This document shows, piece by piece, positions 1,950 through 20,945 of a DNA stretch of 21,503 bases. Source of the stretch: a virus; the IMG/VR virus record IMGVR_UViG_3300033153_007436, positions 1-21,503 of that record; one strand, 5' to 3'. Below the pieces are notes generated by a model that searched no databases, was not told where the DNA came from, and was given only the letters and a program-made list of their open reading frames with translations. Numbering within the stretch: position 1 is the stretch's first letter; each line of letters begins with the position of its first letter. Made by a program: the position numbers and the translations under genes.

Positions 1950-4646
1950 ATGACACAAAAGTTTGTACACCTCCACCTTCATACTGATTACAGTTTACTT
2001 GATGGTTGTATGAAGATTAAAGACTTAATCTCACAAGCAAAAAAGTTAAACTATGAAAAGATTGCAGTAACTAATCATGGGAATATTATTAATATGCCTA
2101 AGATTATTACTGAAGCTGCGAAAGAAGGTATCCAGATCATCCCTGGATGTGAACTCTATGTATCATGGGATTACCCAAGGACACTTAGAGAGAAGGAGAA
2201 GTATCAAGCTTACCATATGGTAGTACTAGCTACTAATCAGACAGGCTATAAGAATCTTTTGAAGCTCGTTTCAGAGGCTCATATAACAGGTAAGTATTTT
2301 AAACCACGTGTGGACAAAGAATTAATAGAGCAACACAAAGAAGGTTTAATATTTACTTCAGCCTGCTTGAATGGTGTCCTTAATAGAAAGACGGTTAAAG
2401 AAGAAGCAGACAGAGAAGAAATCATTAACGCTGCTAGATGGTTCAAGGAAGTATTAGGAGATCAAATTTATCTTGAACTTCAAAGACATCCAGATTTTCC
2501 AGAACAAGACAGAGCTAATGAAAGTACAGTTGACATAGCAAGAACAATGGGTTTCCCTCTTGTTGCTGCGTGTGATTCTCATTATGTATACCCAGAGCAC
2601 CATGGTGCATGGAAAGCAATGATGATGCTGCAAATGGCAATGAAACCATTTGATGCACCCAATGATTATTACATAAAGACTCAAGAAGAAATGGTTGAGT
2701 TGTTCTCAGATCTGCCGGAAGCAATAGAGAATACGATAAGAATTGCTGAGCAATGTGAGCCTATCGTTTTCGATGGTTCATATAAGTTCCCTGTATTTGA
2801 TACAGGTAAATTAAGTGAAGATGAATTCTTAAAGAGAGAAGCGTATCGAGGATTAGAACTAAGGTTAGCAGAAAATGGTCTTACAACAAAGCGTAGAGTT
2901 TACGAAGAACGCCTTGAGCATGAGCTCAATGTTATTAAAGGTATGGGTTTTAGCGGTTACATGCTGGTCGTATCGGATTTTATCAACGCGGCAAAAGAAA
3001 AAGAGATCCTGGTTGGACCCGGTAGGGGATCTGCAGCTGGATCTCTAATGTGTTGGGTAACAGGTATCACAGAAGTTGATCCTTTAATACCTGAATACGA
3101 TCTCCTATTTGAAAGGTTCTTGAACCCAGATAGAATTTCTATGCCTGATATAGATGTAGATTTTGCAGATGACAGGAGATTAGAGGTCAAGCATTACGTA
3201 GAGAAAAAGTATGGTAAAGATAAAGTAGCATCTATCATGACCATAGGTACAATGGCAGCAAGAGGATCGATAAGAGATGCTTGTAGAGTTGTTGGATTAA
3301 CCTATAGTAGTGGTGATGCACTAGCTAAAATGATTCCGGATGGAGTAAGAGGAAGGAATGTATATCTTAGGACGATTACAGATAAGTCTCATGAAGATTA
3401 CTGCAAACCTTTCGTTGACCTTGCGGATACCACAGGACCATACAAGGAAGCCCTATCGCTTGCATTAACAATGGAAGGCATGACAAAGAGCACGGGTGTG
3501 CATGCTGCAGGCGTTGTCATTTCAGATGATAAACCCCTAGTAGAACACATTGGTCTCATGTTAGATAAAGAAGGTAACATAGTAACTTCAGACGACATGA
3601 AGGTTTTAGAAAAGCTTATTGGTCTGATCAAATTTGACTTCCTTGGTCTATCTACATTGACTACCCTTGATATGACATGTAAATCTATAAAAGAAAACTA
3701 TGACATAGACATAGACATTAATAAGATACCGCTTAACGATAGTAAAACTTTTGATATGTTATGTAGTGGTAACTTGTCTGGAGTATTCCAATTATCAGGT
3801 AGTTCAGGTTTTAGAGATGTAGTGATCCAAGTTCAGCCACGATCAGTAGCTGAAATTGCTGATATCACATCTCTGTATAGACCTGGACCACTTGATAATG
3901 GTTTCATACCAAAGTACGTTAAAGCTAAGAATACTGGAATAATAGAGTACATGATACAAGCTAGTAATCCAGAAATTCAAAAGCAGATAGAAGAATGCTT
4001 ACTACCTACTAAGGGTGTGCTTATATATCAAGAACAAGTAATGAAACTTGTACAGATTATGGCAGGCTATTCTTTGGCTCAAGCAGATCTATTACGTAGA
4101 GCTATGGGAAAGAAGATTGCTGCTGAAATGGAAGCACAAAGAAAAACCTTTACAGAAGGTTGCGAAGCTAATAAAATTACTACAGTAGAAGCAAAGAAAG
4201 CATTTGATGCTATTGCTAAGTTTGCAGAGTATGGATTTAATAAATCACATGCTATTGCTTATAGCTTAATTAGTTATCAAACAGCATATTTGCGAGCGCA
4301 TTATCCAACTGAATTTATGGCTGCTTCCCTAACAGAAGTTGCAGGTGACAGAGACAAGACAATATCTTTTTTAAATGATTGTAAGGCAAACAAAATTAAA
4401 GTCCTCCCTCCTAGCATTAATAAAAGTTTGCTAGCCTACACTCCAGAAAAGAATAATATTATGTTTGGTCTCGGTGCAATTAAAAGTTTAGGGAATGTGG
4501 CTATAGATAATATAATAAAGGTGAGAGATAAAAGTGGAAAGTTCAAGAACTTTTTTGATTTCTGCTCAAAAGTAGATCTTAAAAAAGTGAATACTGCAAA
4601 GATTGAAACCTTAATAAGAGCTGGCTGCTTCGATGAAGTAGCCTAG
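1950..4646 (+). CDS. dnaE: DNA polymerase III alpha subunit DnaE, N-terminal/catalytic piece
   Basis: An 898-residue protein covering the PHP, palm, thumb, fingers and start of the beta-binding region of a bacterial C-family replicative polymerase. It begins 'FVHLHLHTDYSLLDG' (PHP metal-binding H7/H9/H11) and carries GPGRGSAAGS (phosphate-binding), 'PDIDVDF' with catalytic Asp402 and Asp404, and 'IKFDFLGL' with the third Asp near 563. It also has 'GVHAAGVVIS', 'LYRPGPL', 'YQEQVMKL', 'RRAMGKK' and 'AEYGFNKSHAIAYS'. The start has AGGAGTTAAG upstream. The PHP signature 'AVTNHGN' has Asn where most have Asp, so PHP exonuclease activity is uncertain. It stops at 'LIRAGCFDEVA', where full-length DnaE would continue. 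The C-terminal domain is encoded separately at 4864. E. coli DnaE is about 1,160 residues, matching the two pieces together. Confidence 0.93.
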   Translation: MTQKFVHLHLHTDYSLLDGCMKIKDLISQAKKLNYEKIAVTNHGNIINMPKIITEAAKEGIQIIPGCELYVSWDYPRTLREKEKYQAYHMVVLATNQTGYKNLLKLVSEAHITGKYFKPRVDKELIEQHKEGLIFTSACLNGVLNRKTVKEEADREEIINAARWFKEVLGDQIYLELQRHPDFPEQDRANESTVDIARTMGFPLVAACDSHYVYPEHHGAWKAMMMLQMAMKPFDAPNDYYIKTQEEMVELFSDLPEAIENTIRIAEQCEPIVFDGSYKFPVFDTGKLSEDEFLKREAYRGLELRLAENGLTTKRRVYEERLEHELNVIKGMGFSGYMLVVSDFINAAKEKEILVGPGRGSAAGSLMCWVTGITEVDPLIPEYDLLFERFLNPDRISMPDIDVDFADDRRLEVKHYVEKKYGKDKVASIMTIGTMAARGSIRDACRVVGLTYSSGDALAKMIPDGVRGRNVYLRTITDKSHEDYCKPFVDLADTTGPYKEALSLALTMEGMTKSTGVHAAGVVISDDKPLVEHIGLMLDKEGNIVTSDDMKVLEKLIGLIKFDFLGLSTLTTLDMTCKSIKENYDIDIDINKIPLNDSKTFDMLCSGNLSGVFQLSGSSGFRDVVIQVQPRSVAEIADITSLYRPGPLDNGFIPKYVKAKNTGIIEYMIQASNPEIQKQIEECLLPTKGVLIYQEQVMKLVQIMAGYSLAQADLLRRAMGKKIAAEMEAQRKTFTEGCEANKITTVEAKKAFDAIAKFAEYGFNKSHAIAYSLISYQTAYLRAHYPTEFMAASLTEVAGDRDKTISFLNDCKANKIKVLPPSINKSLLAYTPEKNNIMFGLGAIKSLGNVAIDNIIKVRDKSGKFKNFFDFCSKVDLKKVNTAKIETLIRAGCFDEVA

Positions 4647-9053: not shown

Positions 9054-9492
9054 ATATAAGTGGTGGAAGCATAAGAAATATAAAAGCATTTCTGTTATTG
9101 GATCAGATTTTTCAAGGTTTAGAAATTCAGAAATAGATATACAAGAATATTTAATACCAGAAAATCACATCCTTGATCATAGAATTATAGAAATAAAATG
9201 GAATGAAATACTCATAGCACAAGCATATAGATTACCAGATAACTCTATTACAATGTATCAAATGTTACAGATGAATGCTGGTGATCTTCTAAATATCAAC
9301 GGATATAATATTTACATTCCGAGAACAGGTGTATATAATATCCAGCTAATCCATAATCATTTGCGATTAGAAGCAAGAATAACAGGGGAGGAAGATAATG
9401 TTAGAGAATATCAATTTGAAGGAACGGACGCTGAACTGGCTAGGTCGGAAACAGTTTCGATCGAAAGGCAGAGGCACACTATGGGCTTCTGA
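9046..9492 (+). CDS. Hypothetical protein, 148 aa
   Basis: A 148-codon ORF starting at 9046 with AGAAGAAGAGG upstream. The first ~115 residues (MAKYKWWKHKKYKSISVIG...) are rich in Ile, Asn and Tyr with beta-type alternation and no recognised motif. The last 31 residues lie in another frame over the start of the Cas4-like gene (95-base overlap) and are probably unconstrained. The ORF could be read as a gene whose conserved part ends near 9400. Confidence 0.5.
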   Translation: MAKYKWWKHKKYKSISVIGSDFSRFRNSEIDIQEYLIPENHILDHRIIEIKWNEILIAQAYRLPDNSITMYQMLQMNAGDLLNINGYNIYIPRTGVYNIQLIHNHLRLEARITGEEDNVREYQFEGTDAELARSETVSIERQRHTMGF

Positions 9493-10345
9493 ATCTTCAG
9501 CAAAATTTATGAATCAATACGGAGAAGAAGAGGTCATAGGTAAATGCCATCGAGCAGTTTACTATAGACTCAAGGGTGTTAAGCCTACTAATCCTCCAAC
9601 AAATTCATCTCAAGTTGTCTTTTTACTTGGTCATCAAGTAGAGGCAGCAGTAACAGAAGCATGGAAACAGATGGGAATCTGGGAGAATAATTCTGTTAGA
9701 TGGGAAAACAAAGGGCTGAACTTATCTGGAGAATACGATGTCGTCTTAAGAGAAGGCGATCTATTCTATGGAGTAGAAGTTAAATCGTTCTATGGATACC
9801 ATGCCAATAAACAGATACTAGGTCACTGGTCAGGTAGAGGTAAAGCTAAAAGATTTATCGCTGGCAAACCTAAGGATGAACATTTAATGCAAGCAGTATT
9901 ATATGTCAAACAATCAGACGATGATCTTGCTGGCTTTAAACTCTTCTATGTATCAAGAGATAACTGTGATATGGCAGAGCATAATATCACGATAGATAAA
10001 GAAGATAATATTTACATTAATGGGAAAAGAGAAACAAGATTTACAGTTAAAGATATACATGAAAGATATAAAACGATGAACATGTATATTGAGAATGATC
10101 TTAAGCCCGATAGAGAATATACTCTACATCCTTCAGACGAAAGAGTAGAGGTCCTGTTCCAGAGAGGGGCACTGTCTAAGACAGCGTATGAATCTCACAC
10201 AAAAGGCAAAGAGAAGGTAAGAGACTGGCACTGTAGTTATTGTGATCATAAAGATCATTGTTGGAATGTAGATACAGGAGAAGAACCAATAGTAACTAAA
10301 GCAGAGGAGGTTGCGCCTGATGCTTTAGTGCATGGAAGTTTATAA
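9398..10345 (+). CDS. Cas4-like Fe-S PD-(D/E)XK exonuclease, 315 aa
   Basis: A 315-residue protein with the hallmarks of Cas4/RecB-type nucleases carrying an iron-sulfur cluster. It has one cysteine near the N-terminus in 'GKCHRAVYYRL' (C50) and three near the C-terminus in 'WHCSYCDHKDHC' (C279, C282, C288). Between them are the nuclease motifs: a His in 'LGHQVE' (H79), Asp in 'LSGEYDVV' (D114), E-V-K in 'YGVEVKSFYGYH' (E127, K129) and Gln in 'HLMQAVLYV' (Q165). Such enzymes process DNA ends, and phages use them in replication and recombination. The start has GGGGAGGAAGATA upstream and lies inside the preceding ORF. It is followed 16 bases later by the primase-helicase. No CRISPR array or other cas gene is present, so it is a phage replication nuclease rather than an adaptation protein. 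Confidence 0.85.
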   Translation: MLENINLKERTLNWLGRKQFRSKGRGTLWASESSAKFMNQYGEEEVIGKCHRAVYYRLKGVKPTNPPTNSSQVVFLLGHQVEAAVTEAWKQMGIWENNSVRWENKGLNLSGEYDVVLREGDLFYGVEVKSFYGYHANKQILGHWSGRGKAKRFIAGKPKDEHLMQAVLYVKQSDDDLAGFKLFYVSRDNCDMAEHNITIDKEDNIYINGKRETRFTVKDIHERYKTMNMYIENDLKPDREYTLHPSDERVEVLFQRGALSKTAYESHTKGKEKVRDWHCSYCDHKDHCWNVDTGEEPIVTKAEEVAPDALVHGSL

Positions 10346-10361: not shown

Positions 10362-12812
10362 ATGTCTAGAATTAAAAATTTCGATCAAGTAATTGAGAAG
10401 ATTAAAGCACATCTCGTAGATTATCTTGAAGAAAAAGATATAAATACAAAAACAAATTTTAGTTGTATTCATCCAGATCATAATGATCAAATAGCATCAT
10501 GTGGTGTGATGAGACAATCTGATTTTCAGAAGTGGCATTGCTTTGGCTGTGGAGAATTTGGAGATATATTCGATGCGTGTGCTCACATGGAAGACAAACC
10601 AGTTAGTGGTCCAGAGTACATCAAAGAAACAGTAATGTATCTTGCAGAGAAGTACAGCATAGATGTACAAATGGAAGAGCCAACGGAAGAAGAGAAGTAT
10701 AGGATAGAAGCATTTGTTGCTTACAAGAAAGCTGCTCATTATGTTGCAGCACATCCTACTGAAAAAGCAATAACGGAGATGCAAAGACGAGAGTGGGTGC
10801 CATCAGAATGTGCGACAAGACTTATCGGATCTGTTGATTCATTTCAAAACTTTAAAACATACATGAAGGATCAGAACTTTAGCGTCTCGTTTCTTGAAAC
10901 GATAGACTTAATGAATCCTTATCTATTCAATGAGAACAATTTATTGTTCACTGTTTGCGATGAGTATGGGAGACCTTGCGGTTTTGGTGCAAGAAACTTA
11001 GACTTTGATCCTAATAATAAAGATAGTAGAAAATATATTAACTCAAAGAACTTTGGAACTGATGTTAAATGTCAGATCTATGAAAAGTCTAAAAGACTTT
11101 ATAGTATTCATCTAGCAAAGAAAGAAGTTGGTAGTATATATATAATGGAAGGCTATGGAGATGTAGAGACTGCAATCCAGAATGGATTAAGTAAAGTTGT
11201 TTGCGTTGGCGGTACAGCATTCACAGACTATCATATTATTGAGCTAGCGAAGATGGGCATTACAGACATCACTCTTTGCATGGATGGAGATGAACGAGGA
11301 CAAGCAAGCTTAAATAGAATGCTAGAGAAGTTTACTAATCATAAAGAATTTTCAATTCATGTTATAAGTATTCCAGAGAACATGGATCCGGATGATTACA
11401 TTAGAGAGTATGGGATCGAAAGATTCAGAAGTTTAAAGAGATGGACTGCTTTTGAATGGAAACTAAATAGCTATGATGATAGAATCGATACAGCTCTTAT
11501 CAGAAAAGAAGTAGTACCAATTATAGCAACAGAATCTTCTCCTATAGTTAGAGAGGAGATGGCTAATACTTTATCTGAAAGAATAGGGATCACAGTAGAG
11601 GCTATTAAAGCTGAGATAGAACAGATTCTTGATCAGTCAGAAGCTAAGAGGGCAATGGAGAGACAGGCAATTCTAAATACTCTTGCTACTGATATAAAGA
11701 TATGTCCAAATGATTGGAGACTATCAATCAATAAGGCTATGCAAAATCTAGATTCATTATCAGAGTCTTATAATGAAGACATGTTCAGTCCAATGGCTTA
11801 TCTTAAAGATCTTGAAATGATTCAAGTTAAAGAAGAAGACAGAGATAGTGTTGAGAGCACTTACGAATTTGCTGAGTGGAGAGAGTTTACAGACGCCGTT
11901 CTTGGTGATTGGATCGCAACACTCAATGTGATTGGTGGAGCTGCGAACACTGGGAAGACAGGACTCATGGCAGCAATGGCTTTACAACTAGCTAAGAGTG
12001 AAGAGAATGATTGCTTAGTTCTATTTCATACCATCGACGATACAGTCGCTCAGTTTACGACTAGACTTGTATGTCAGTATGCACAAGAGCTGATGCCAAA
12101 TATTAATCTGAACATGATTAAAAATCCTAATGGATATGCTAATGTCAGACAGATCAATAAAGCAAGACAGTATGCTTATGAAAAGGTTAAGCAACTGGTT
12201 GCACAAAATAGATTAGTCGTTAGAGGTGGTGAACAAGGTAGAGGTGCGAATACTCTAGCTTATGCACAGGAAATGATCCGATATTATAAGAAGATGTTTC
12301 CTGAGAAAAGGATTGTTTACTTTCTAGATAACTTTCATAGGCTTAGAGACTTTTCTAATATGGATGAAAGACTCAGATTCAAAGCTCTTTCTAATGCCAC
12401 GAAAGATATGGCTAAGAAAGAACAGATACCTGTGTGGGCTACGATGGAATATAATAAGGCAGGAGCATGGGATGGACGTCCTACTAACAATTCTATTTCT
12501 GAATCAGCAGCGATGGAATATGATGCTAATGTTATTATTCATATCTATAATGAGCTGCACCACAAAGATGATAAGTCAGAGCTTTATTTTGTAAGAACAG
12601 ATAATGAAGGTAGAAGATACAGGGCTCCTCGTATTGAATTAATCTTTGGCAAGAATAAGATTAACTCATTCAAGGGTAAGTTATACTTTGATTTCTATAC
12701 TGAGCAGTCGCGTTATGTGCCTGTTCCATCATCTATAGTTCAGCAAGATTTAGAAACAATACGCAAATCTAAAGAGGAAGAGAAGAAACCACGATACAGT
12801 AATGCAAGTTAA
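10362..12812 (+). CDS. Bifunctional DNA primase-helicase (DnaG/DnaB type), 816 aa
   Basis: An 816-residue fusion of primase and replicative helicase in the order seen in T7 gp4. The N-terminal CHC2-type zinc finger is 'CIHPDH' (C35, H37) with 'HCFGCGEFGD' (C60, C63). A TOPRIM domain follows at about 258-340 with 'IYIMEGYGDVETA' (E263) and 'LCMDGDERG' (D308, D310), which makes RNA primers. A linker leads to a RecA/DnaB-like ATPase with Walker A 'GGAANTGKTG' (about 525-534) and a Walker B-like strand 'RIVYFLDNFHRL' (D656). Near the end, 'KKEQIPVWATMEYNKAG' corresponds to the sensor region of DnaB helicases. The start has ACGGGGGTCAA upstream. It overlaps the next gene by 11 bases. It would unwind the fork and prime lagging strands for the split DnaE. 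Confidence 0.9.
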   Translation: MSRIKNFDQVIEKIKAHLVDYLEEKDINTKTNFSCIHPDHNDQIASCGVMRQSDFQKWHCFGCGEFGDIFDACAHMEDKPVSGPEYIKETVMYLAEKYSIDVQMEEPTEEEKYRIEAFVAYKKAAHYVAAHPTEKAITEMQRREWVPSECATRLIGSVDSFQNFKTYMKDQNFSVSFLETIDLMNPYLFNENNLLFTVCDEYGRPCGFGARNLDFDPNNKDSRKYINSKNFGTDVKCQIYEKSKRLYSIHLAKKEVGSIYIMEGYGDVETAIQNGLSKVVCVGGTAFTDYHIIELAKMGITDITLCMDGDERGQASLNRMLEKFTNHKEFSIHVISIPENMDPDDYIREYGIERFRSLKRWTAFEWKLNSYDDRIDTALIRKEVVPIIATESSPIVREEMANTLSERIGITVEAIKAEIEQILDQSEAKRAMERQAILNTLATDIKICPNDWRLSINKAMQNLDSLSESYNEDMFSPMAYLKDLEMIQVKEEDRDSVESTYEFAEWREFTDAVLGDWIATLNVIGGAANTGKTGLMAAMALQLAKSEENDCLVLFHTIDDTVAQFTTRLVCQYAQELMPNINLNMIKNPNGYANVRQINKARQYAYEKVKQLVAQNRLVVRGGEQGRGANTLAYAQEMIRYYKKMFPEKRIVYFLDNFHRLRDFSNMDERLRFKALSNATKDMAKKEQIPVWATMEYNKAGAWDGRPTNNSISESAAMEYDANVIIHIYNELHHKDDKSELYFVRTDNEGRRYRAPRIELIFGKNKINSFKGKLYFDFYTEQSRYVPVPSSIVQQDLETIRKSKEEEKKPRYSNAS

Positions 12813-13958: not shown

Positions 13959-14273
13959 ATGACAAATGAATTTAAAGTATGTGCAGTATGCAAACATGCT
14001 AATCATGATCCAAGTTTAGGTGAAAGGAAAGAAGTTATTTGTATTCTTAATCCAAATAAACCTACACTAAAACAATCAGATGATATATGTTTACAGTATG
14101 TATCTAAATATAAAAAGATAAAAATCATACAAGATACTGGTATGCTGTTTGAATATGATCCTTCTACGGAATCAAGCAAAGAAGTATCATCAGAAGATTT
14201 TGAAAAAGAATACATAGAAGAACCAATAATAGAATCAAAAGAAGAGGAGACAGAGATACCATGGCAACTATAA
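13959..14273 (+). CDS. Small Cys-containing acidic protein, 104 aa
   Basis: The ATG at 13959 follows GGGAGCATAGT and gives 104 residues beginning MTNEFKVCAVCKHANHDP. A longer in-frame reading from 13923 lies inside the previous gene. The N-terminus has 'CAVCKHANHD' and later 'VICIL' and 'DICLQYV', possibly a zinc-binding knuckle made of two CxxC/C parts. The C-terminal 45 residues are very acidic (SSEDFEKEYIEEPIIESKEE). It overlaps the next gene by 13 bases. Confidence 0.55.
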   Translation: MTNEFKVCAVCKHANHDPSLGERKEVICILNPNKPTLKQSDDICLQYVSKYKKIKIIQDTGMLFEYDPSTESSKEVSSEDFEKEYIEEPIIESKEEETEIPWQL

Positions 14274-14419
14274 AATGTAAATGTGGCAACACATATTTCG
14301 CAAGAGTAATGATTAATCAATTCAAAGAACATGGTGCAAGTTTGTACATGAGCATGCATGAAGTAGAACCAGATCATGATATAAAAATATATCAGTGTCT
14401 CTGTTGTAAACTCTACTGA
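14261..14419 (+). CDS. Zinc-ribbon protein, 52 aa, possibly 5' part of a frame-broken gene
   Basis: A 52-codon ORF from ATG 14261 (upstream GGAGACAGAGATACC). It has two cysteine pairs, 'KCKCGN' near the start and 'YQCLCCKLY' at the very end, a compact zinc-ribbon pattern. It stops at TGA 14417-14419. The sequence just after continues as a coding-looking frame one base on (see the next entry), so this may be the N-terminal domain of a longer protein of about 105 residues. Whether the break is real, programmed or an assembly error cannot be told here. Confidence 0.5.
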   Translation: MATIKCKCGNTYFARVMINQFKEHGASLYMSMHEVEPDHDIKIYQCLCCKLY

Positions 14420-14582
14420 AGATGATAAAGAATTGTATACTATCATCCAAGCTGCACTTGAAGGCAAGGTTATAGAAAAGAAACCTAGACATAAATCTAA
14501 GCCATTGCATTCTGGTACCGCTGCTTTCGTTGGTGGTGACAATAGACCAGAAGATCATGGCAAATTTGTTAAGATGAATTGA
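14418..14582 (+). pseudogene. Out-of-frame continuation of the zinc-ribbon gene
   Basis: From 14385 to the TGA at 14580-14582 the +1 frame is open and reads like protein: EDDKELYTIIQAALEGKVIE, KKPRHKSKPL, then HSGTAAFVGGDNRP. It has no ATG start; only a TTG at 14433 is available. Its stop overlaps the next ATG as TGATG, a typical translational-coupling junction, and that next gene has no Shine-Dalgarno site of its own. This implies that ribosomes do arrive in this frame. A +1 shift at or before the TGA at 14417 would join it to the zinc ribbon. Confidence 0.45.
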
Positions 14583-14908
14583 TGAAACTTAAATACCCTA
14601 TATCAAAGCTAGAGTGGGAATGGTGGATAGATCATAAGTTTCCATTCATTCCAAACAAGTGGGGTATCAGTTCCAACTACTATCTTATTGGTCACGCAGA
14701 ATCTGGCTTTGACGTCTATCTAGCTTTTACTGATGAATCTAATTCTAAGGTATGGATAGAAAAAGCAAACAAGATTGCAATGCCTGGAATGATTTATTTT
14801 GAAGGACTAGAATCAATAGATGATAATGAAGAGTTTAATAAAGCACATCAATTCTTTATTGACAAAGGAATACTAGATGGAAAAGAAAATACTAGAGAAG
14901 ATATATAG
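14582..14908 (+). CDS. Hypothetical protein, 108 aa
   Basis: A 108-residue protein rich in aromatic residues (MKLKYPISKLEWEWWIDHKF, later ESGFDVYLAFTDESNSKVWI) with alternating strand-like segments. The ATG at 14582 overlaps the stop of the preceding frame (TGATG); a TTG three bases upstream is a less likely start. No family recognised. It overlaps the next gene by 32 bases. Confidence 0.55.
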   Translation: MKLKYPISKLEWEWWIDHKFPFIPNKWGISSNYYLIGHAESGFDVYLAFTDESNSKVWIEKANKIAMPGMIYFEGLESIDDNEEFNKAHQFFIDKGILDGKENTREDI

Positions 14909-15374
14909 TTACCTTCCTATTATACAAACAACGTGTAATAGATATGGATGGGATGGCAGAAACGGTAGCCCTATTGAAAGAGAAGCTGTTACTGAGTTCA
15001 GAATATTTATGGATTATCTACAACAGTTAATTCCATTAAGTGATATACCAAATCCTGCAGATGTTTTTGGAGATCCGCTCGGAGCTATAACCATCTTATG
15101 GGATGAACAGATAGATCCTGAAACGTATAAGTATGATTCATTTGAAATAAATATTAGAGGAGATGGCTTGGTTACTTATTCTTCTACTCTTGAAAGTATA
15201 GGGATCGAAAAGTTTAGTGGGTGTACATTAGAGCCACAACTAGATCAATACATATTAGAATATGTCAAGTTCTTTAAGGGAAAAGAAAATGAGATTAAAC
15301 AAAAAACAGGTGGACAAAATAGCATCAATAATAGCGTCAAGTCTAACAAGAATAATAATAAAAAAGTTCTTTGA
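14877..15374 (+). CDS. Protein of the 'GWDG...P..EA' type, 165 aa
   Basis: A 165-residue protein starting at ATG 14877 inside the previous gene. After a short helix it has 'RYGWDGRNGSPIEREAVTEF' and then 'DYLQQLIPLSDIPNPADVFG', followed by 'GAITILWDE' and 'FEINIRGDGLVTYSS'. This order matches a recurrent bacterial and phage pattern, 'GWdG..a.pi...a...A...l..l......P.....dG.i.l.W......i.i..dg...y'. Proteins of this kind are widespread small proteins without an established function. The last 25 residues are a Lys/Asn-rich tail. It is the last gene before a terminator. Confidence 0.6.
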   Translation: MEKKILEKIYSYLPIIQTTCNRYGWDGRNGSPIEREAVTEFRIFMDYLQQLIPLSDIPNPADVFGDPLGAITILWDEQIDPETYKYDSFEINIRGDGLVTYSSTLESIGIEKFSGCTLEPQLDQYILEYVKFFKGKENEIKQKTGGQNSINNSVKSNKNNNKKVL

Positions 15375-15399
15375 CGTTACAAGAAGATGGTAGTAGTAT
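15371..15399 (+). promoter_or_regulatory. Putative sigma70-type promoter upstream of terminator and RNR gene
   Basis: TTGACG (15371-15376), a 17-base spacer and TAGTAT (15394-15399) fit a sigma70 promoter. The -35 lies over the stop region of the upstream gene. A transcript from here would meet the intrinsic terminator at 15442 after about 40 bases, so it would reach the reductase gene only by read-through or antitermination. Confidence 0.45.
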
Positions 15400-15441
15400 G
15401 ATAACTCACTAGCAGTCTGTTAGAAAATTAATAAAATTAGT

Positions 15442-15462
15442 AGGGGCGTTTGCCCCTTTTTT
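15442..15462 (+). terminator. Intrinsic (rho-independent) terminator
   Basis: GGGGC (15443-15447), loop GTTT, GCCCC (15452-15456), extended by an A-T pair and followed by TTTTTT. This is a textbook GC stem with a T-run. It separates the small-gene operon ending at 15374 from the ribonucleotide reductase at 15478. The reductase ATG has GGAGAGG only a few bases downstream of the T-run. Confidence 0.85.
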
Positions 15463-15477
15463 ATTGTAAGGAGAGGG

Positions 15478-16368
15478 ATGATAACTCTAAGTGCAGGAAT
15501 ACTTAGTGACATAACAGTGTTCACAAAGTATGCAAAATATATACCAGAATTAGAAAGAAGAGAAACATTTGAAGAGATTGCAGATCGAAATAAACGGATG
15601 CATCTAATCAAGTTTAAAGACAACCAAGAAATATGCAACAAGATAGAAGGAGTATATGAAGCCTATGTCAAAACAAAGAAAATCTTACCAAGCATGCGCT
15701 CGCTCCAATTCGGAGGCAGACCAATCGAGCTTAGTCCAAATAGGATCTACAATTGCTGCTTCCTTCCAGTCGATGACTACAGAGCGTTTTCAGAATCTAT
15801 GTTCCTTTTACTTGGAGGAACTGGAGTCGGGTACTCCGTTCAGCAAGCACACGTTGACAAACTCCCGGAGATTAGGAAGCCTCATCGTAGCCGCAGATTC
15901 CTTATTGGCGATAGCATTGAAGGTTGGTCGGACGCAGTCAAAGTCCTGATGCAAGCGTACCTGGATGGGAGATCGTTACCACGTTTTGATTTCTCAGACA
16001 TACGAGACAAGGGTGCACCACTTATTACTAGTGGAGGGAAAGCACCAGGACCAGAACCGCTAAAAGATTGTCTCCATAATATGAAGAAAGTATTAGATAG
16101 AAAAGAAGATGGAGATCAGCTAACCACCTTAGAAGTCCATGATATCATGTGCTATATTGCAGACGCAGTTCTTGCAGGTGGTATCAGAAGAGCTGCATTG
16201 ATCTGTCTATTTGATGTAGATGATGAAGACATGCTTTCCTGTAAGTTCGGTAGATGGTGGGAGCTTAATCCACAACGAGGTAGAGCAAATAACTCTGCTG
16301 TTATCTTAAGACATAAAATTAAGAAGAAGGAATTCAAAGAACTTAGAACCCGGATTCTATTTTACTAA
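15478..16368 (+). CDS. nrdJ: Class II (B12-dependent) ribonucleotide reductase, N-terminal part, frame-broken
   Basis: This 296-residue ORF is the first half of an adenosylcobalamin-dependent ribonucleoside-triphosphate reductase, which converts NTPs to dNTPs for phage DNA synthesis. Diagnostic segments are 'PELERRETFEEIADRN', 'ILPSMRSLQFGG', 'RIYNCCFLPVDD' (the buried redox cysteine), 'LLGGTGVGYSVQ', 'AVLAGGIRRAALICLFD' and 'RGRANNSAVIL'. The start ATG at 15478 has AAGGAGAGGG upstream. After 'KKKEFKEL' the frame runs into RTRILFY and stops at 16368, while the expected continuation ('EPGFYF' and the catalytic 'NPCCEI') is found one frame over. On its own this product lacks the active-site Cys and the C-terminal redox tail. 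A monomeric class II enzyme is usually a single chain of about 700 residues. Confidence 0.88.
   Translation: MITLSAGILSDITVFTKYAKYIPELERRETFEEIADRNKRMHLIKFKDNQEICNKIEGVYEAYVKTKKILPSMRSLQFGGRPIELSPNRIYNCCFLPVDDYRAFSESMFLLLGGTGVGYSVQQAHVDKLPEIRKPHRSRRFLIGDSIEGWSDAVKVLMQAYLDGRSLPRFDFSDIRDKGAPLITSGGKAPGPEPLKDCLHNMKKVLDRKEDGDQLTTLEVHDIMCYIADAVLAGGIRRAALICLFDVDDEDMLSCKFGRWWELNPQRGRANNSAVILRHKIKKKEFKELRTRILFY
16310..16368 (+). other. +1 frame-break window in the ribonucleotide reductase gene
   Basis: The upstream reductase frame is open until TAA 16366-16368. The downstream frame is open only from 16310, after TAA at 16307-16309. Any ribosomal shift or lost bases must fall here. Protein similarity changes frame between 'KKKEFKEL' (to 16344) and 'EPGFYF' (from 16346). 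The junction contains CTT AGA (16342-16347), similar to the Ty1-type +1 slip site CUU AGG. Related enzymes have about ten extra residues here (a W..I...GSG stretch before EPG), so a short deletion is an alternative. Confidence 0.7.
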
Positions 16369-16447
16369 TAATGCTGAGTGGGGAACGAACCCTTGTTGCG
16401 AAATTGCTCTCAGACCATTTCAATTTTGTAATCTATGTGAGGTCAAC

Positions 16448-17317
16448 ATGGGTACCATAGAATCGCAGGAGGACCTAAATGCACGGGCGAGAGCAGCAGC
16501 TTTTATTGGCACTCTACAAGCATCATACACAGACTTTCACTACCTCAGAGATATCTGGAAAAAGACAACAGAACGAGATGGACTCATCGGAGTGTCAGGA
16601 ACAGGAATTGCATCAGGAGCATACAAAGACTTTGATCTTCAAGAAGCATCTGCAGCAGTTGTGGATGAAAATAAAGTTACTGCTAAACAAATAGGCATAA
16701 GATATGCATCTAGAACTACAGCGGTTAAACCTGCTGGAACAAGTTCGATGGTTCTCGGAACTGCCTCTGGAATTCATGGATGGCATGATGAGTACTTCAT
16801 AAGACGCATGAGACTAGGAAAGAACGAAGCCATCTATAAACACCTAGCTACACATCATCCTGAATTAGTTGAAGATGAATTCTTCAAACCACACAGTCAG
16901 GCTGTTGTATCTATACCAATTGAAGCACCGAAAGGAGCAATACTACGTCACGAAACACCAATAGAACTATTGGAACGAGTTAAATTATTTCACGATACAT
17001 GGATCAGACCTGGACATATCAAAGGTGATAATACACACAACATTTCTGCTACCATTTCTATTAAAGACGATGAATGGGATCAGGTTGAACAGTGGATGTG
17101 GGAGAATAGAAACTCTTACAATGGACTATCTGTGTTACCGTATGATGGAGGAAGCTACACTCAGGCTCCATTTGAAAGTATAAGCAGACAGAAATATCAT
17201 GCAATGATTAAACACTTAACAGAGATAGACTTAACTAAAGTAATAGAAGATACAGATGAAACAGATTTATCAGGAGAGTTAGCATGCAGTGGTGGAAGCT
17301 GTGAGCTGGTCATTTAA
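16448..17317 (+). CDS. nrdJ: Class II ribonucleotide reductase, C-terminal part
   Basis: The second half of the reductase in the +1 frame. The only ATG is at 16448, but recognisable protein begins earlier at about 16346: 'EPGFYFTNNAEWGTNPCCEI' (active-site Cys and Glu, 16388-16405), then 'LRPFQFCNLCEVN'. From 16448 come 'ARAAAFIGTLQASYTDFHYL', 'LIGVSGTGIASG', 'TAVKPAGTSSMVLGTASGIH', 'YFIRRMRLGKNE' and 'NGLSVLPYDGGSY'. The tail is 'ELACSGGSCELVI', the C-terminal CxxxxC redox pair. Both halves are well conserved in their own frames, which argues for a recent break or a programmed shift rather than an old pseudogene. Translation from 16448 alone would lack the catalytic Cys and should be inactive. 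Confidence 0.85.
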   Translation: MGTIESQEDLNARARAAAFIGTLQASYTDFHYLRDIWKKTTERDGLIGVSGTGIASGAYKDFDLQEASAAVVDENKVTAKQIGIRYASRTTAVKPAGTSSMVLGTASGIHGWHDEYFIRRMRLGKNEAIYKHLATHHPELVEDEFFKPHSQAVVSIPIEAPKGAILRHETPIELLERVKLFHDTWIRPGHIKGDNTHNISATISIKDDEWDQVEQWMWENRNSYNGLSVLPYDGGSYTQAPFESISRQKYHAMIKHLTEIDLTKVIEDTDETDLSGELACSGGSCELVI

Positions 17318-17851: not shown

Positions 17852-17927
17852 GGGGCTGTAGCTCAGTTGGGAGAGCGCTTGGCTTGCACCCAGGAAGTCG
17901 CAGGTTCGATTCCTGTCAGTTCCACCA
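17852..17927 (+). tRNA. tRNA-Ala (anticodon TGC)
   Basis: A 76-base cloverleaf. Acceptor GGGGCTG pairs with CAGTTCC (two G-T pairs). The D-arm is TAGCTCAGTTGGGAGAGC. The anticodon stem CTTGG/CCAGG has loop CTTGCAC. The T-arm has GTTCGATTC, then A and an encoded CCA. Decodes GCN, mainly GCA. Confidence 0.93.
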
Positions 17928-17934
17928 TATTTAT

Positions 17935-18009
17935 GCCGGTGTAATTCAGTGGGAGAATGCTTCCCTTACAAGGAAGAAGTCGGGCGTTCAAATCGCTCCA
18001 CCGGTACCA
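17935..18009 (+). tRNA. tRNA-Val (anticodon TAC)
   Basis: A 75-base cloverleaf. Acceptor GCCGGTG/CACCGGT has a G1-U72 pair. The anticodon stem CTTCC/GGAAG has loop CTTACAA. The T-arm GGGCG/CGCTC has loop TTCAAAT, with discriminator A and an encoded CCA. Decodes GTA and relatives. Confidence 0.92.
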
Positions 18010-18079
18010 TATATAGGAAGAAAAGATTAATAATTAATGCGGATTATAGTAGTGGTTACTAGATGGTTTAAGGAAGTAA

Positions 18080-18538
18080 ATGGATACTAAATTAATCGGA
18101 GACATAGGAGAACAAGCAACTATATTGGAGTGCTTAAAAAGAGGATGGAATGTTTTAACTCCAGTTGGAGATAGGTTGCCTTATGACCTTCTCGTTGAAC
18201 TCAATGGAAGTTTTATAAAGCTCCAAGTAAAAGTTGCGTGGGAAGAGAAAGGATCATATAGAGTAGATAATAGAAGATCAAAAACGAACAGAAAAGAATA
18301 CAAATATGACAGATATTCTAATGATGATTTTGATTTTGCAATTATTTATATAAGAGAATTAAATACTTTTTATATTATGCCATCAGTTTTCTTTAATTCA
18401 TATGGCAGTGGAATAACATTAGAAAGTATAGAGAAACGTCAAAGATTACCACAAGCTTCAAAGTATAAGGAAGCGTGGAATCTTATTAATAATAATTGTT
18501 GCGAGGTAGAGCAGTTGGTCAGCTCAGTTGGCTCATAA
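18080..18538 (+). CDS. PD-(D/E)XK (I-Ssp6803I-like) homing-type endonuclease, 152 aa
   Basis: The N-terminal half fits the small PD-(D/E)XK endonuclease family that includes the group I intron enzyme I-Ssp6803I. It has 'GDIGEQATILECLKRGWNVL' (E11), 'PVGDRLPYDLLVELNG' (D36) and 'FIKLQVKVAW' (Q49, K51), i.e. the E...D...QxK active site with spacing close to that enzyme. The start has TTTAAGGAAGTAA upstream. The length of about 150 residues is normal for the family. The last 12 codons lie inside the tRNA gene that begins at 18500, and the stop TAA is the anticodon-loop sequence CTCATAA. No intron is evident around it, so it appears free-standing. Its likely role is DNA cleavage that drives its own spread. 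C-terminal residues encoded by the tRNA gene suggest invasion next to that gene or loss of an earlier stop. Confidence 0.78.
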   Translation: MDTKLIGDIGEQATILECLKRGWNVLTPVGDRLPYDLLVELNGSFIKLQVKVAWEEKGSYRVDNRRSKTNRKEYKYDRYSNDDFDFAIIYIRELNTFYIMPSVFFNSYGSGITLESIEKRQRLPQASKYKEAWNLINNNCCEVEQLVSSVGS

Positions 18539-18576
18539 TCAACAGGTCGGAGGTTCGAATCCTCCCCTCGCTACCA
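18500..18576 (+). tRNA. tRNA-Met (CAT), initiator-like
   Basis: A 77-base cloverleaf with loop CTCATAA. It shares hallmarks of initiator tRNA: position 1 T faces T72 (unpaired), and the D-stem has A11-T24 (elongators have pyrimidine 11 and purine 24). The D-loop and variable region 'GAGCAG..GG.AGCTC' and 'AGGTCG' resemble bacterial tRNA-fMet. The anticodon stem GTTGG/TCAAC has only part of the three G-C pairs of initiators (G30-C40, G31-T39, T29-A41). T-arm GGAGG/CCTCC has TTCGAAT, then A and CCA. Its first 39 bases are also the end of the endonuclease ORF. Confidence 0.88.
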
Positions 18577-18579
18577 TAT

Positions 18580-18654
18580 GCCGACATAGTGTAAAGGTTA
18601 GCACGAAACCCTCATAAGGTTTAAGACCAGGATCGTTACCTGGTGTCGGTACCA
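18580..18654 (+). tRNA. tRNA with CAT anticodon (elongator Met or Ile2)
   Basis: A 75-base cloverleaf. Acceptor is GCCGACA/TGTCGGT, anticodon stem AAACC/GGTTT with loop CTCATAA, and D-stem T11-A24, i.e. elongator type. It could be Met, or Ile reading AUA if C34 is modified to lysidine. The T-loop is ATCGTTA rather than TTCxAxT: position 54 is A and 58 is T, swapping the usual T54-A58 contact. Confidence 0.85.
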
Positions 18655-18668
18655 ACAAAAGGAAGAGA

Positions 18669-18920
18669 ATGAAATATTTTGTATTAGTATTATTACTATT
18701 AGTAGCAGGTCCAGCATTAGCTAGTGACCTAACAGATGAAGTAGAAGCAAAGTGTAGAGTAGAGTATGTAGATACTGGAGTTTATTATACTTACTGTCCG
18801 AAAGGATCAGTGGCAGAGGCGGCTAGAACTAGTCACTCTAACCCAAAGTTTATGCCTTACACTAGAGTTGCATGCGTTAAGCCAGTCATAGTATGCACGG
18901 AAGAAGAAGTAGAAGAATAA
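18669..18920 (+). CDS. Small Sec-exported protein, 83 aa
   Basis: An 83-residue protein with a clear cleavable signal peptide: MK, then YFVLVLLLLVAGPALA and likely cleavage after ALA (residue 18). The mature part is about 65 residues with four cysteines (C29, C44, and two near the end), probably two disulfides in the periplasm or outside. It ends EEEVEE. The start has AAAAGGAAGAGA upstream, 14 bases after a tRNA. Exported proteins among tRNA genes are typical phage accessory cargo. It could act on the host envelope or on superinfecting phages, but nothing in the sequence shows this. Confidence 0.65.
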   Translation: MKYFVLVLLLLVAGPALASDLTDEVEAKCRVEYVDTGVYYTYCPKGSVAEAARTSHSNPKFMPYTRVACVKPVIVCTEEEVEE

Positions 18921-18924
18921 AACA

Positions 18925-18990
18925 GAGAGGGATATGCGGTTGTAGCTGTCCACTGAATGGTGGGTTGCAGTGTCCAAGTTACCCCTCTCG
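18925..18990 (+). ncRNA. Possible structured RNA with 7-bp closing stem and internal repeat
   Basis: GAGAGGG (18925-18931) can pair with CCCTCTC (18983-18989), enclosing 51 bases at roughly tRNA size. Inside are a CCAC/GTGG hairpin and an imperfect direct repeat, GGTTGTAGCTGTCCA and GGTTGCAGTGTCCA. I could not fold it as a tRNA: no T-arm fits and there is no CCA. It lies six bases upstream of tRNA-Ile. It may be a tRNA remnant or a separate RNA. Confidence 0.3.
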
Positions 18991-18995
18991 ACTAT

Positions 18996-19070
18996 AGTGG
19001 TATAGCTCAGCGGTAGAGCGTCGCTCTGATAAAGCGGATGCCGAAAGTTCAAATCTTTCTACCACTACCA
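18996..19070 (+). tRNA. tRNA-Ile (anticodon GAT)
   Basis: A 75-base cloverleaf. Acceptor is AGTGGTA/TACCACT, D-arm TAGCTCAGCGGTAGAGC, anticodon stem TCGCT/AGCGG with loop CTGATAA, and T-loop TTCAAAT, then A and CCA. Decodes ATT and ATC. Confidence 0.92.
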
Positions 19071-19073
19071 TAA

Positions 19074-19149
19074 GCAGCCGTCGTCTAATCGGTCAGGACA
19101 TCACCCTTTCAAGGTGGGAACGGGAGTTCGAATCTCCTCGGCTGTTCCA
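19074..19149 (+). tRNA. tRNA-Glu (anticodon TTC)
   Basis: A 76-base cloverleaf. Acceptor GCAGCCG/CGGCTGT has a G1-U72 pair. Anticodon stem TCACC/GGTGG has loop CTTTCAA, and the T-arm has TTCGAAT. The 3' end is T plus an encoded CCA. Decodes GAA and GAG, both very frequent in the window's genes. Confidence 0.93.
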
Positions 19150-19185
19150 TTTTACAACACATGCCATACTGTGTTATCCTAAGGT

Positions 19186-19659
19186 ATGCCATGGATCAAA
19201 GTCTTTCTTATATCAATCCTGCTAAACTCATGTTCATTCATGAGTCATCAGGTTAGTCCGACTGAACACAGAGGATATTCAATTGAAAGAGAGATACTCC
19301 CATACATTTTAGAATTCGAAAGAGTATGCAATGTAAAAATAGATACACATGTAAGATTTTCTAATATGTTAATGGGAGAACAGATGATAGCCTACTGCTT
19401 TCCTTTCATAAACAAACTTATACATATAGATTATGAATGGTGGAAAAAGCATAGCTGGGATCTAAGAAGAGAGCAGCTTGTATTCCATGAACTTGGTCAC
19501 TGTGTCCTTGGAAGGAAGCATGATAGTAGAATGATAGAAAGAGAGACTGTTGGGTATAGACCACACTCTATAATGCATCCTCAAATATTCGCTGACCTAT
19601 CAGACTATGTGATCTATAAAGATAGTTACATAAAAGAGCTTTGCAAAGAAAATAATTGA
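19186..19659 (+). CDS. Putative lipoprotein zinc metalloprotease, 157 aa
   Basis: A 157-residue protein with a lipoprotein-like N-terminus (MPWIKVFLISILLNSC, lipidation Cys at 16) and a zinc-protease signature 'FHELGHCVLGRKHD' (H101, E102, H105, possible third ligand H112). A 'HSIMHPQIF' segment about 15 residues later resembles the Met-turn of metzincins. The third His is one residue further than in the canonical HExxHxxGxxH, so this is a variant of that pattern. It would act outside the cytoplasm, anchored to a membrane. The only upstream AAGG is too close to the ATG for a normal site. ATG 19186 gives a sensible signal sequence and is preferred. It sits alone between tRNAs. Confidence 0.72.
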   Translation: MPWIKVFLISILLNSCSFMSHQVSPTEHRGYSIEREILPYILEFERVCNVKIDTHVRFSNMLMGEQMIAYCFPFINKLIHIDYEWWKKHSWDLRREQLVFHELGHCVLGRKHDSRMIERETVGYRPHSIMHPQIFADLSDYVIYKDSYIKELCKENN

Positions 19660-19684
19660 CACTCATTCAGTTATATGATTTAAT
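19656..19684 (+). promoter_or_regulatory. Sigma70-type promoter before second short RNA unit
   Basis: TTGACA (19656-19661), a 17-base spacer and TTTAAT (19679-19684). The -35 overlaps the stop codon of the metalloprotease gene. RNA would begin near 19691 and run to the terminator at 19794-19819. Confidence 0.6.
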
Positions 19685-19690
19685 ACCTAC

Positions 19691-19819
19691 ATGATTAAAG
19701 TAGCATGCACCCATATTCCTACGACTACGCCTTGGCACAGACCGGGAGTCGTACAGTAATATCTGGAGTAATGTTATTTTAATCACAAAATAGATCCAGA
19801 CATAAGTGCTGGATTTTTT
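19691..19819 (+). ncRNA. Short transcript with a 22-aa ORF and a hairpin
   Basis: Between the promoter at 19656 and the terminator at 19794 lies about 110 bases with no conventional gene. It includes a 22-codon ORF (19691-19759, MIKVACTHIPTTTPWHRPGV plus two residues) starting right at the expected RNA start, so it would be leaderless. A seven-pair hairpin, TACGACT (19720-19726)/AGTCGTA (19747-19753), lies inside the ORF. It could be a small RNA, an attenuator leader or a non-functional spacer. Confidence 0.4.
19794..19819 (+). terminator. Intrinsic terminator upstream of tRNA-Thr
   Basis: ATCCAG (19794-19799) pairs with CTGGAT (19809-19814) around a nine-base loop, followed by TTTTTT. The tRNA-Thr gene begins a few bases later, repeating the arrangement seen before tRNA-Ala. 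Confidence 0.75.
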
Positions 19820-19826
19820 AGTTTTA

Positions 19827-19902
19827 GCTGGAGTAGCTCAGTAGGTAGAGCCCCGCTTTTGTAAAGCGGCTGTCGCAGGTTCAATTCCTGTTTCCAGCTC
19901 CA
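19827..19902 (+). tRNA. tRNA-Thr (anticodon TGT)
   Basis: A 76-base cloverleaf. Acceptor is GCTGGAG/TTCCAGC, anticodon stem CCGCT/AGCGG with loop TTTGTAA, and T-arm CGCAGGTTCAATTCCTG. The discriminator is T, with an encoded CCA. Decodes ACA and relatives. Confidence 0.92.
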
Positions 19903-19905
19903 TGT

Positions 19906-19982
19906 CGGAATGTAGCGCAGCCTGGTAGCGCGCTTGCTTTGGGAGCAAGGGGTCGGAGGTTCGAATCCTCTCATTCCGACCA
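19906..19982 (+). tRNA. tRNA-Pro (anticodon TGG)
   Basis: A 77-base cloverleaf. Acceptor is CGGAATG/CATTCCG, anticodon stem CTTGC/GCAAG with loop TTTGGGA, and T-arm GGAGG/CCTCT with TTCGAAT, then A and CCA. Decodes CCA and relatives. Confidence 0.93.
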
Positions 19983-20000
19983 TTTTTTAAAGGGATTACT

Positions 20001-20159
20001 ATGGATGAAATTCATAAAGAATATTATGAAGAGATCAGAAAAGAAGAGTTGTTCATAGAAGTAATCAATAGAATATATAAATACTTTCCATGGCAACCGG
20101 ACGGAAAGATGGACACTGTTAAGGAAGATTTTCATAAACTAATATGCGAGAATGATTAA
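20001..20159 (+). CDS. Small acidic protein, 52 aa
   Basis: A 52-residue ORF from ATG 20001 (AAAGGGATTACT upstream): MDEIHKEYYEEIRKEELFIE, then VINRIYKYFPWQP and a charged helix. No family is recognised. The stop overlaps the next start as TAATG, so the two genes are coupled. Confidence 0.55.
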   Translation: MDEIHKEYYEEIRKEELFIEVINRIYKYFPWQPDGKMDTVKEDFHKLICEND

Positions 20160-20716
20160 TGAATATTACAGTATACACAGACATACATTTGGGCGCGCCT
20201 CATGCCATGAAAGACTTTGATCTTTTTGAAGAGGCAAAGAAAAGAAACGTATTCTTTACTGGAGACATCTTTGATATAAAAAATACTAAGAAGTCTAAAC
20301 TAAAAGAGTTTAAAGAACAAAGAGATAAACTAAAAGAAATAGCAGGAGATAGATACGTGTATGGTAACCATGAATGTATTAAACCTGATAAATATTATCA
20401 TGTAAAAAATGGAATCCTTTTTTGCCATGGACATACTATCTTTTGGGATGAAGAGAAAGTAAAAAGATGGGAAAGGAAGAAAGGCGGAATGAATAGGTTT
20501 GAATACTTCTTTTATCGATTTAAGCACAGAGGAGTTTACAGAGGTAAGAAAATAAATCTATCTCTTGAAGCAAAAGAAAAATGTTATGATCTCTGTGTTG
20601 AGCATGATTGTCATACTATTGTATTCGGTCACACTCATAAGTTTTGTGACATAGAATATAAAGGTAAAAGATTTATTAATGCCGCAAGAGGCAAAACAGA
20701 TATAACGGGTGTGTAG
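20159..20716 (+). CDS. Calcineurin-like (LpxH/YfcE-type) metallophosphoesterase, 185 aa
   Basis: A compact 185-residue phosphoesterase with every metal-binding block: 'YTDIHLG' (D8, H10), 'FTGDIFDI' (D36), 'YGNHE' (N70, H71), 'LFCHGH' (H90) and 'VFGHTHK' (H158, H160). The short 'D.HLG' and 'GDIFD' motifs recall LpxH-type UDP-diacylglucosamine pyrophosphatases and related small phosphatases. The substrate cannot be told from the sequence. It starts as TAATG after the preceding small gene. Its last three codons lie inside the tRNA-Trp gene, and its TAG stop is made from the conserved T8-A9-G10 of that tRNA. It is unrelated in length to the 361-residue phosphoesterase at 5579. Confidence 0.82.
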   Translation: MNITVYTDIHLGAPHAMKDFDLFEEAKKRNVFFTGDIFDIKNTKKSKLKEFKEQRDKLKEIAGDRYVYGNHECIKPDKYYHVKNGILFCHGHTIFWDEEKVKRWERKKGGMNRFEYFFYRFKHRGVYRGKKINLSLEAKEKCYDLCVEHDCHTIVFGHTHKFCDIEYKGKRFINAARGKTDITGV

Positions 20717-20782
20717 CTCCAATGGTAGAGCAGTGGATTCCAAATCCGAAGGTTCTAGGTTCAAGTCCTAGTGCGCCCGCCA
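20707..20782 (+). tRNA. tRNA-Trp (anticodon CCA)
   Basis: A 76-base cloverleaf. Acceptor is GGGTGTG/TGCGCCC with discriminator G, as in Trp tRNAs. The anticodon loop is TTCCAAA; its stem has a G27-A43 mismatch. The T-arm has TTCAAGT, then CCA. It overlaps the end of the phosphoesterase gene by ten bases. Confidence 0.88.
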
Positions 20783-20788
20783 ATTTAT

Positions 20789-20865
20789 GGTGGTATTAGT
20801 GTTAGCGGTTAGCACGACTGGTTGTGGTCCAGTTAGCATCGGTTCGAATCCGATATATCACCCCA
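20789..20865 (+). tRNA. tRNA-His (anticodon GTG)
   Basis: A 77-base cloverleaf with the extra 5' G (G-1) facing C73, the identity element of tRNA-His. Acceptor is GTGGTAT/ATATCAC, anticodon stem ACTGG/CCAGT with loop TTGTGGT, T-loop TTCGAAT, and encoded CCA. Confidence 0.93.
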
Positions 20866-20868
20866 TAT

Positions 20869-20945
20869 GGTTCCATAGCATAACTGGATAATGCAATTCA
20901 CTTCTAATGAATAGACTACAGGTTCGAGTCCTGTTGGAACTACCA
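20869..20945 (+). tRNA. tRNA-Arg (anticodon TCT)
   Basis: A 77-base cloverleaf. Acceptor is GGTTCCA/TGGAACT, anticodon stem ATTCA/TGAAT with loop CTTCTAA, and T-arm ACAGG/CCTGT with TTCGAGT, then A and CCA. Decodes AGA and AGG; AGA is by far the most common Arg codon in the genes here, which explains why a phage would carry it. Confidence 0.93.

Follow-up and report, generated by a model that had tools for sequence, protein, structure and literature searches.

Missing sequence rather than ribosomal decoding appears to underlie a broken ribonucleotide reductase frame in a metagenomic phage contig

RESULTS

The nrdJ frame break coincides with missing sequence

The window, the whole stretch of DNA analysed, is one virus contig of 21,503 nt held as a single record (IMGVR_UViG_3300033153_007436). 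Its ribonucleotide reductase gene, nrdJ, runs in two frames, and comparison with relatives indicates that missing sequence, not decoding, underlies the break. At 16344/16345 the window is 29 nt, or ten codons less one base, shorter than both its nearest relative, G001, and an intact relative, L001. A change of frame in nrdJ was found at none of the 80 homologous loci compared (0/80), placing the break far beyond chance. The preliminary description had called the gene broken by a +1 frame change; these words fit the consequence, while the cause would be the absent stretch.

ORF 15478-16368 encodes 296 aa, terminates at the stop codon 16366-16368, and matches the ribonucleotide reductase family PHROG 367 over profile positions 32-347 of 701 (E = 2.7e-55). 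The open frame 16310-17317, which overlaps it by about 60 nt, matches the same family over positions 360-696 of 701 (E = 7.7e-58), bearing out the proposal that the two halves match class II reductase in different frames. A frame scan agreed that NPCCEI, encoded at 16388-16405 in the second frame, lies upstream of the start at ATG 16448. This is the first ATG, GTG or TTG of that frame; other ATGs follow, so that it is not, as had been stated, the only one. CSGGSC, with its C-terminal cysteine pair, is encoded in the 3′ half, and the CTT AGA at the junction begins at 16342.

On sequence and predicted-fold evidence, the gene is identified as a monomeric class II NrdJ of a tailed phage, similar to the RTPR of L. 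leichmannii (PDB 1L1L). Its cofactor is presumably adenosylcobalamin (B12), as is known for the family. L001 matches RTPR by sequence (E = 9e-30), and its predicted fold (model pLDDT 69, pTM 0.73) has 1L1L as best PDB match (E = 8.6e-32, TM 0.76). Like RTPR, the window halves encode the NPC radical-cysteine loop and a C-terminal redox cysteine pair; unlike it, the window copy lacks ten residues before GEPG and changes frame. The single continuous frame that includes the helix-turn before GEPG is thus absent from the window and present in the relatives. Genes of the NrdJ type are common in phages, with matches in 1,182 phage records.

Table 1. Positions of the two broken genes and of associated features in the window
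Feature	Position	Strand	Basis
Second broken gene; 5′ part 14261-14419, 3′ part ~14406 to 14582 in other frame	14261..14582	+	Comparison with G001/G002
Hairpin resembling an intrinsic terminator, with T run, just upstream of nrdJ	15440..15466	+	Sequence GGGGCGTTTGCCCCTTTTTT, read by eye
5′ part of nrdJ; homology extends to roughly the last codon before the junction	15478..16342	+	PHROG 367; 81% identical to G001, 76% to L001
Putative deletion join, where CTT (left part) abuts A-GAA (right part); 29 nt absent	16343..16346	+	Comparison with relatives
3′ part of nrdJ, in the other frame, with NPCCEI radical-cysteine loop and CSGGSC shuttle cysteines	16346..17317	+	PHROG 367
tRNA-Arg(TCT), which decodes AGA	20869..20945	+	

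Ten codons are present in every relative

The relatives comprised 80 IMG/VR loci at ~60-77% amino acid identity (55% over the best segment for L074). Near-duplicates are frequent among them: the 72 that are nearly full length comprise 62 distinct proteins. In all 80, GEPG is preceded by a stretch matching LW(K)xI(E)xSGSG, which the window lacks. The spacing of the stretch is identical in 78, the other two having an in-frame intein further downstream. G001 (IMGVR_UViG_3300023210_002044, locus L122), which is syntenic with the window over 2.0-16.3 kb, retains the ten codons at the extreme end of its contig. Mapped onto the L001 model, the missing segment is residues 286-295, which form the latter half of helix 279-292 together with the turn leading to strand 298-302. 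Two suggestions of the preliminary description therefore held: that some ten codons, give or take a base, had been lost before EPGFYF, and that a W..I..GSG-EPG segment is truly missing. The nearest isolate homologue, the NrdJ of Microcystis phage Mel-JY01 (PP395634.1), is full length and 63% identical to L001. Its one uninterrupted ORF, of 617 aa, contains the segment LWKKIELSQSG, which the window NrdJ lacks.

Neither microhomology nor a repeat was seen at the join when the window was set against L001 and G001. An exact search of IMG/VR with the 37-mer downstream of the join gave no match, and a homologue search of genome contigs found none. The only exact IMG/VR match to the junction 19-mer, L082, was set aside as chance, since neither blastn nor tblastx aligned it with the window. 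The idea of a chimera, with two phages joined here, was unsupported, as both halves are about equally near L001 (76% and 77%). An intein or intron at the join was rejected: the inteins in two relatives sit ~13 codons downstream, in frame, with the segment kept. Long-read homopolymer error was likewise rejected, there being no 1-nt frame breaks in the other genes shared with G001 and a second syntenic relative, G002.

Both halves retain the marks of constraint. Between the window and its relatives pN was 0.12-0.24 and pS was saturated in both halves. Amino acid changes on the window branch were not in excess (16 versus 18 in the first half, 21 versus 18 in the second). Of the near-invariant family residues, 188/194 are kept, two fall in the gap and four are substituted, which is comparable to the 6/198 at which L001 differs. 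These three measures agree with the earlier view that neither half has decayed. Constraint without decay in both halves suggests that nrdJ was functional until very recently, or remains so in the real phage.

A second gene is broken 1.9 kb upstream

The window was compared with all ORFs of G001 and G002. More than ten genes kept their frame; the one further frame change lay 1.9 kb upstream of the nrdJ break, in a gene for a small Cys-rich protein (CKCG...QC). Both relatives carry its homologue as an intact ORF of 129/131 aa, and these are 84% alike. The window copy lacks ~38 nt near 14400, although about ten bases at the join align to neither side, making the exact size of the loss uncertain; the comparison covers two relatives. 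Thus two losses, each of tens of bases and each breaking a frame, lie 1.9 kb from each other in this contig and occur in no other record, which points to a shared and probably technical cause.

DISCUSSION

The preliminary description had offered programmed frameshifting, a fresh mutation or an assembly error; the last two still stand, whereas frameshifting found no support. In that scheme, a +1 slip at CTT-AGA from CUU to UUA would enter the second frame and join the two into a shortened, active NrdJ, consistent with the catalytic residues kept in both halves. The site was said to resemble that of Ty1, CUU_AGG_C, where slipping relies on AGG being decoded slowly because its tRNA is scarce (PMC5009743), and the window does share the P-site CTT and the +1 relation of frames with Ty1 and with the CTTTGA of prfB. 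The resemblance did not survive closer comparison. Other window ORFs contain six further in-frame copies of CTT-AGA/AGG. AGA is the commonest Arg codon of the window (165/241) and the phage carries its own tRNA-Arg(TCT), and slow decoding in the A site is therefore not expected. The A-site codon is also a sense codon, with no stop at the site, and the purine-rich AAGGA lies ~10 nt upstream; bacterial prfB requires a stop codon, with an SD-like element placed 3 nt ahead of CTTT (PMC12421855). RNA structure at the join folded no better than shuffles (z = 0.51). All 80 relatives have a single frame and none has the slip site, an outcome that the preliminary description had itself named as refuting its reading. 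Unlike the known shifts, then, the window shows neither a slow or stop A-site codon, nor a correctly spaced stimulator, nor conservation, and its sequence is missing rather than just out of frame. With 29 nt absent a +1 slip cannot restore the ancestral protein: the product, joined as KEL-EPGFYF, would still lack ten residues present in 80/80 relatives, among them half of a predicted helix. Frameshifting would also leave the second broken gene unexplained, and we consider it very improbable. A variant in which a real ten-residue deletion combines with the +1 shift to yield small, regulated amounts of a shortened but functional NrdJ is hardly credible. Nor does a natural split enzyme with separately translated halves seem tenable. 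The two ORFs do lack internal stops, and there are known cases of split NrdJ genes that carry split inteins. However, the first start of the second half follows NPCCEI, the open frames overlap, and no intein sequence occurs at the junction; absence of the ten residues from both halves largely refutes this reading.

Comparison of contigs points instead to the record itself. During metagenome assembly, a blunt mis-join could have dropped a few tens of bases here, as at 14.4 kb. The record would then lack an internal 29-nt stretch encoding the SGSG turn and one half of a helix, located just ahead of the GEPG strand and of the NPC radical-cysteine loop. Its loss would shift the frame, and translation as written would stop within a few codons of the join, leaving a dead 296-aa fragment. 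We infer this cause from the assembled sequences and judge an assembly artefact moderately likely and the best of the explanations. A blunt 29-nt deletion can also be a real mutation, however; it is unusual for short-read assemblers to lose tens of bases where there is no repeat, and the nrdJ break is cleaner than the second one. Possibly, if somewhat doubtfully, the phage (or the dominant genotype of its population) recently suffered one real deletion that inactivated nrdJ and another in the small upstream gene, leaving it to rely on the host dNTP supply. The clean break in a contig that otherwise keeps frame with G001 and G002, and the lack of coding decay, would fit such a fresh event. In phages, class II NrdJ is an accessory function that needs just one gene, and an inactivated copy exists in the collection, the nrdJ of L041 having an in-frame stop. 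Against a real deletion, two independent frame-breaking losses would be needed so close together, both too recent for decay and both in this record only, and the nrdJ join has no microhomology.

Frameshifts in conserved replication genes have been met before in phage records, polA being frameshifted in some Cyano SP phages (PMC6370689). The present case is alike in kind but involves two genes of one metagenomic contig and losses of tens of bases. A full-text literature search for programmed frameshifting in a phage ribonucleotide reductase found no paper; if true, the shift would have been the first such case known to us. When a lone metagenomic phage contig shows a frame change, relatives should be compared before recoding is proposed. 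In this record, two suspect sites are now marked.

Other features of the window and its relatives

Several further observations were made. At L057:2846-4000 and L076:2864-4000, inteins with a LAGLIDADG-type domain interrupt NP^C, the NrdJ radical-cysteine codon. For L057 the Pfam match to LAGLIDADG_3 was at E = 1e-15, and that to Intein_splicing (E = 9e-8) fell below the cut-off. The stop in the nrdJ of L041 is at a conserved Trp position (WM*DNR) and is the sole one among the 80 relatives. Full-length NrdJ is labelled 'recombinase' in the Vibrio and Oceanospirillum phage records OP056089.1, NC_079185.1 and OL658619.1.

Between its counterpart of the window gene at 14877 and nrdJ, G001 has ~7.7 kb (L122:1368-9118) with three Radical_SAM proteins, which the window lacks at 15374-15478. 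Replication genes in the window (1950-4646, 9398-10345 and 10362-12812) encode an 898-aa DnaE-type Pol III alpha, a Cas4-like exonuclease and a primase-helicase with Toprim and DnaB-like domains. Eleven tRNA genes lie at 17852-20945 in pairs or triplets, with small ORFs between them that include a PDDEXK_5 endonuclease (18080-18538) and a metallophosphoesterase (20159-20716).
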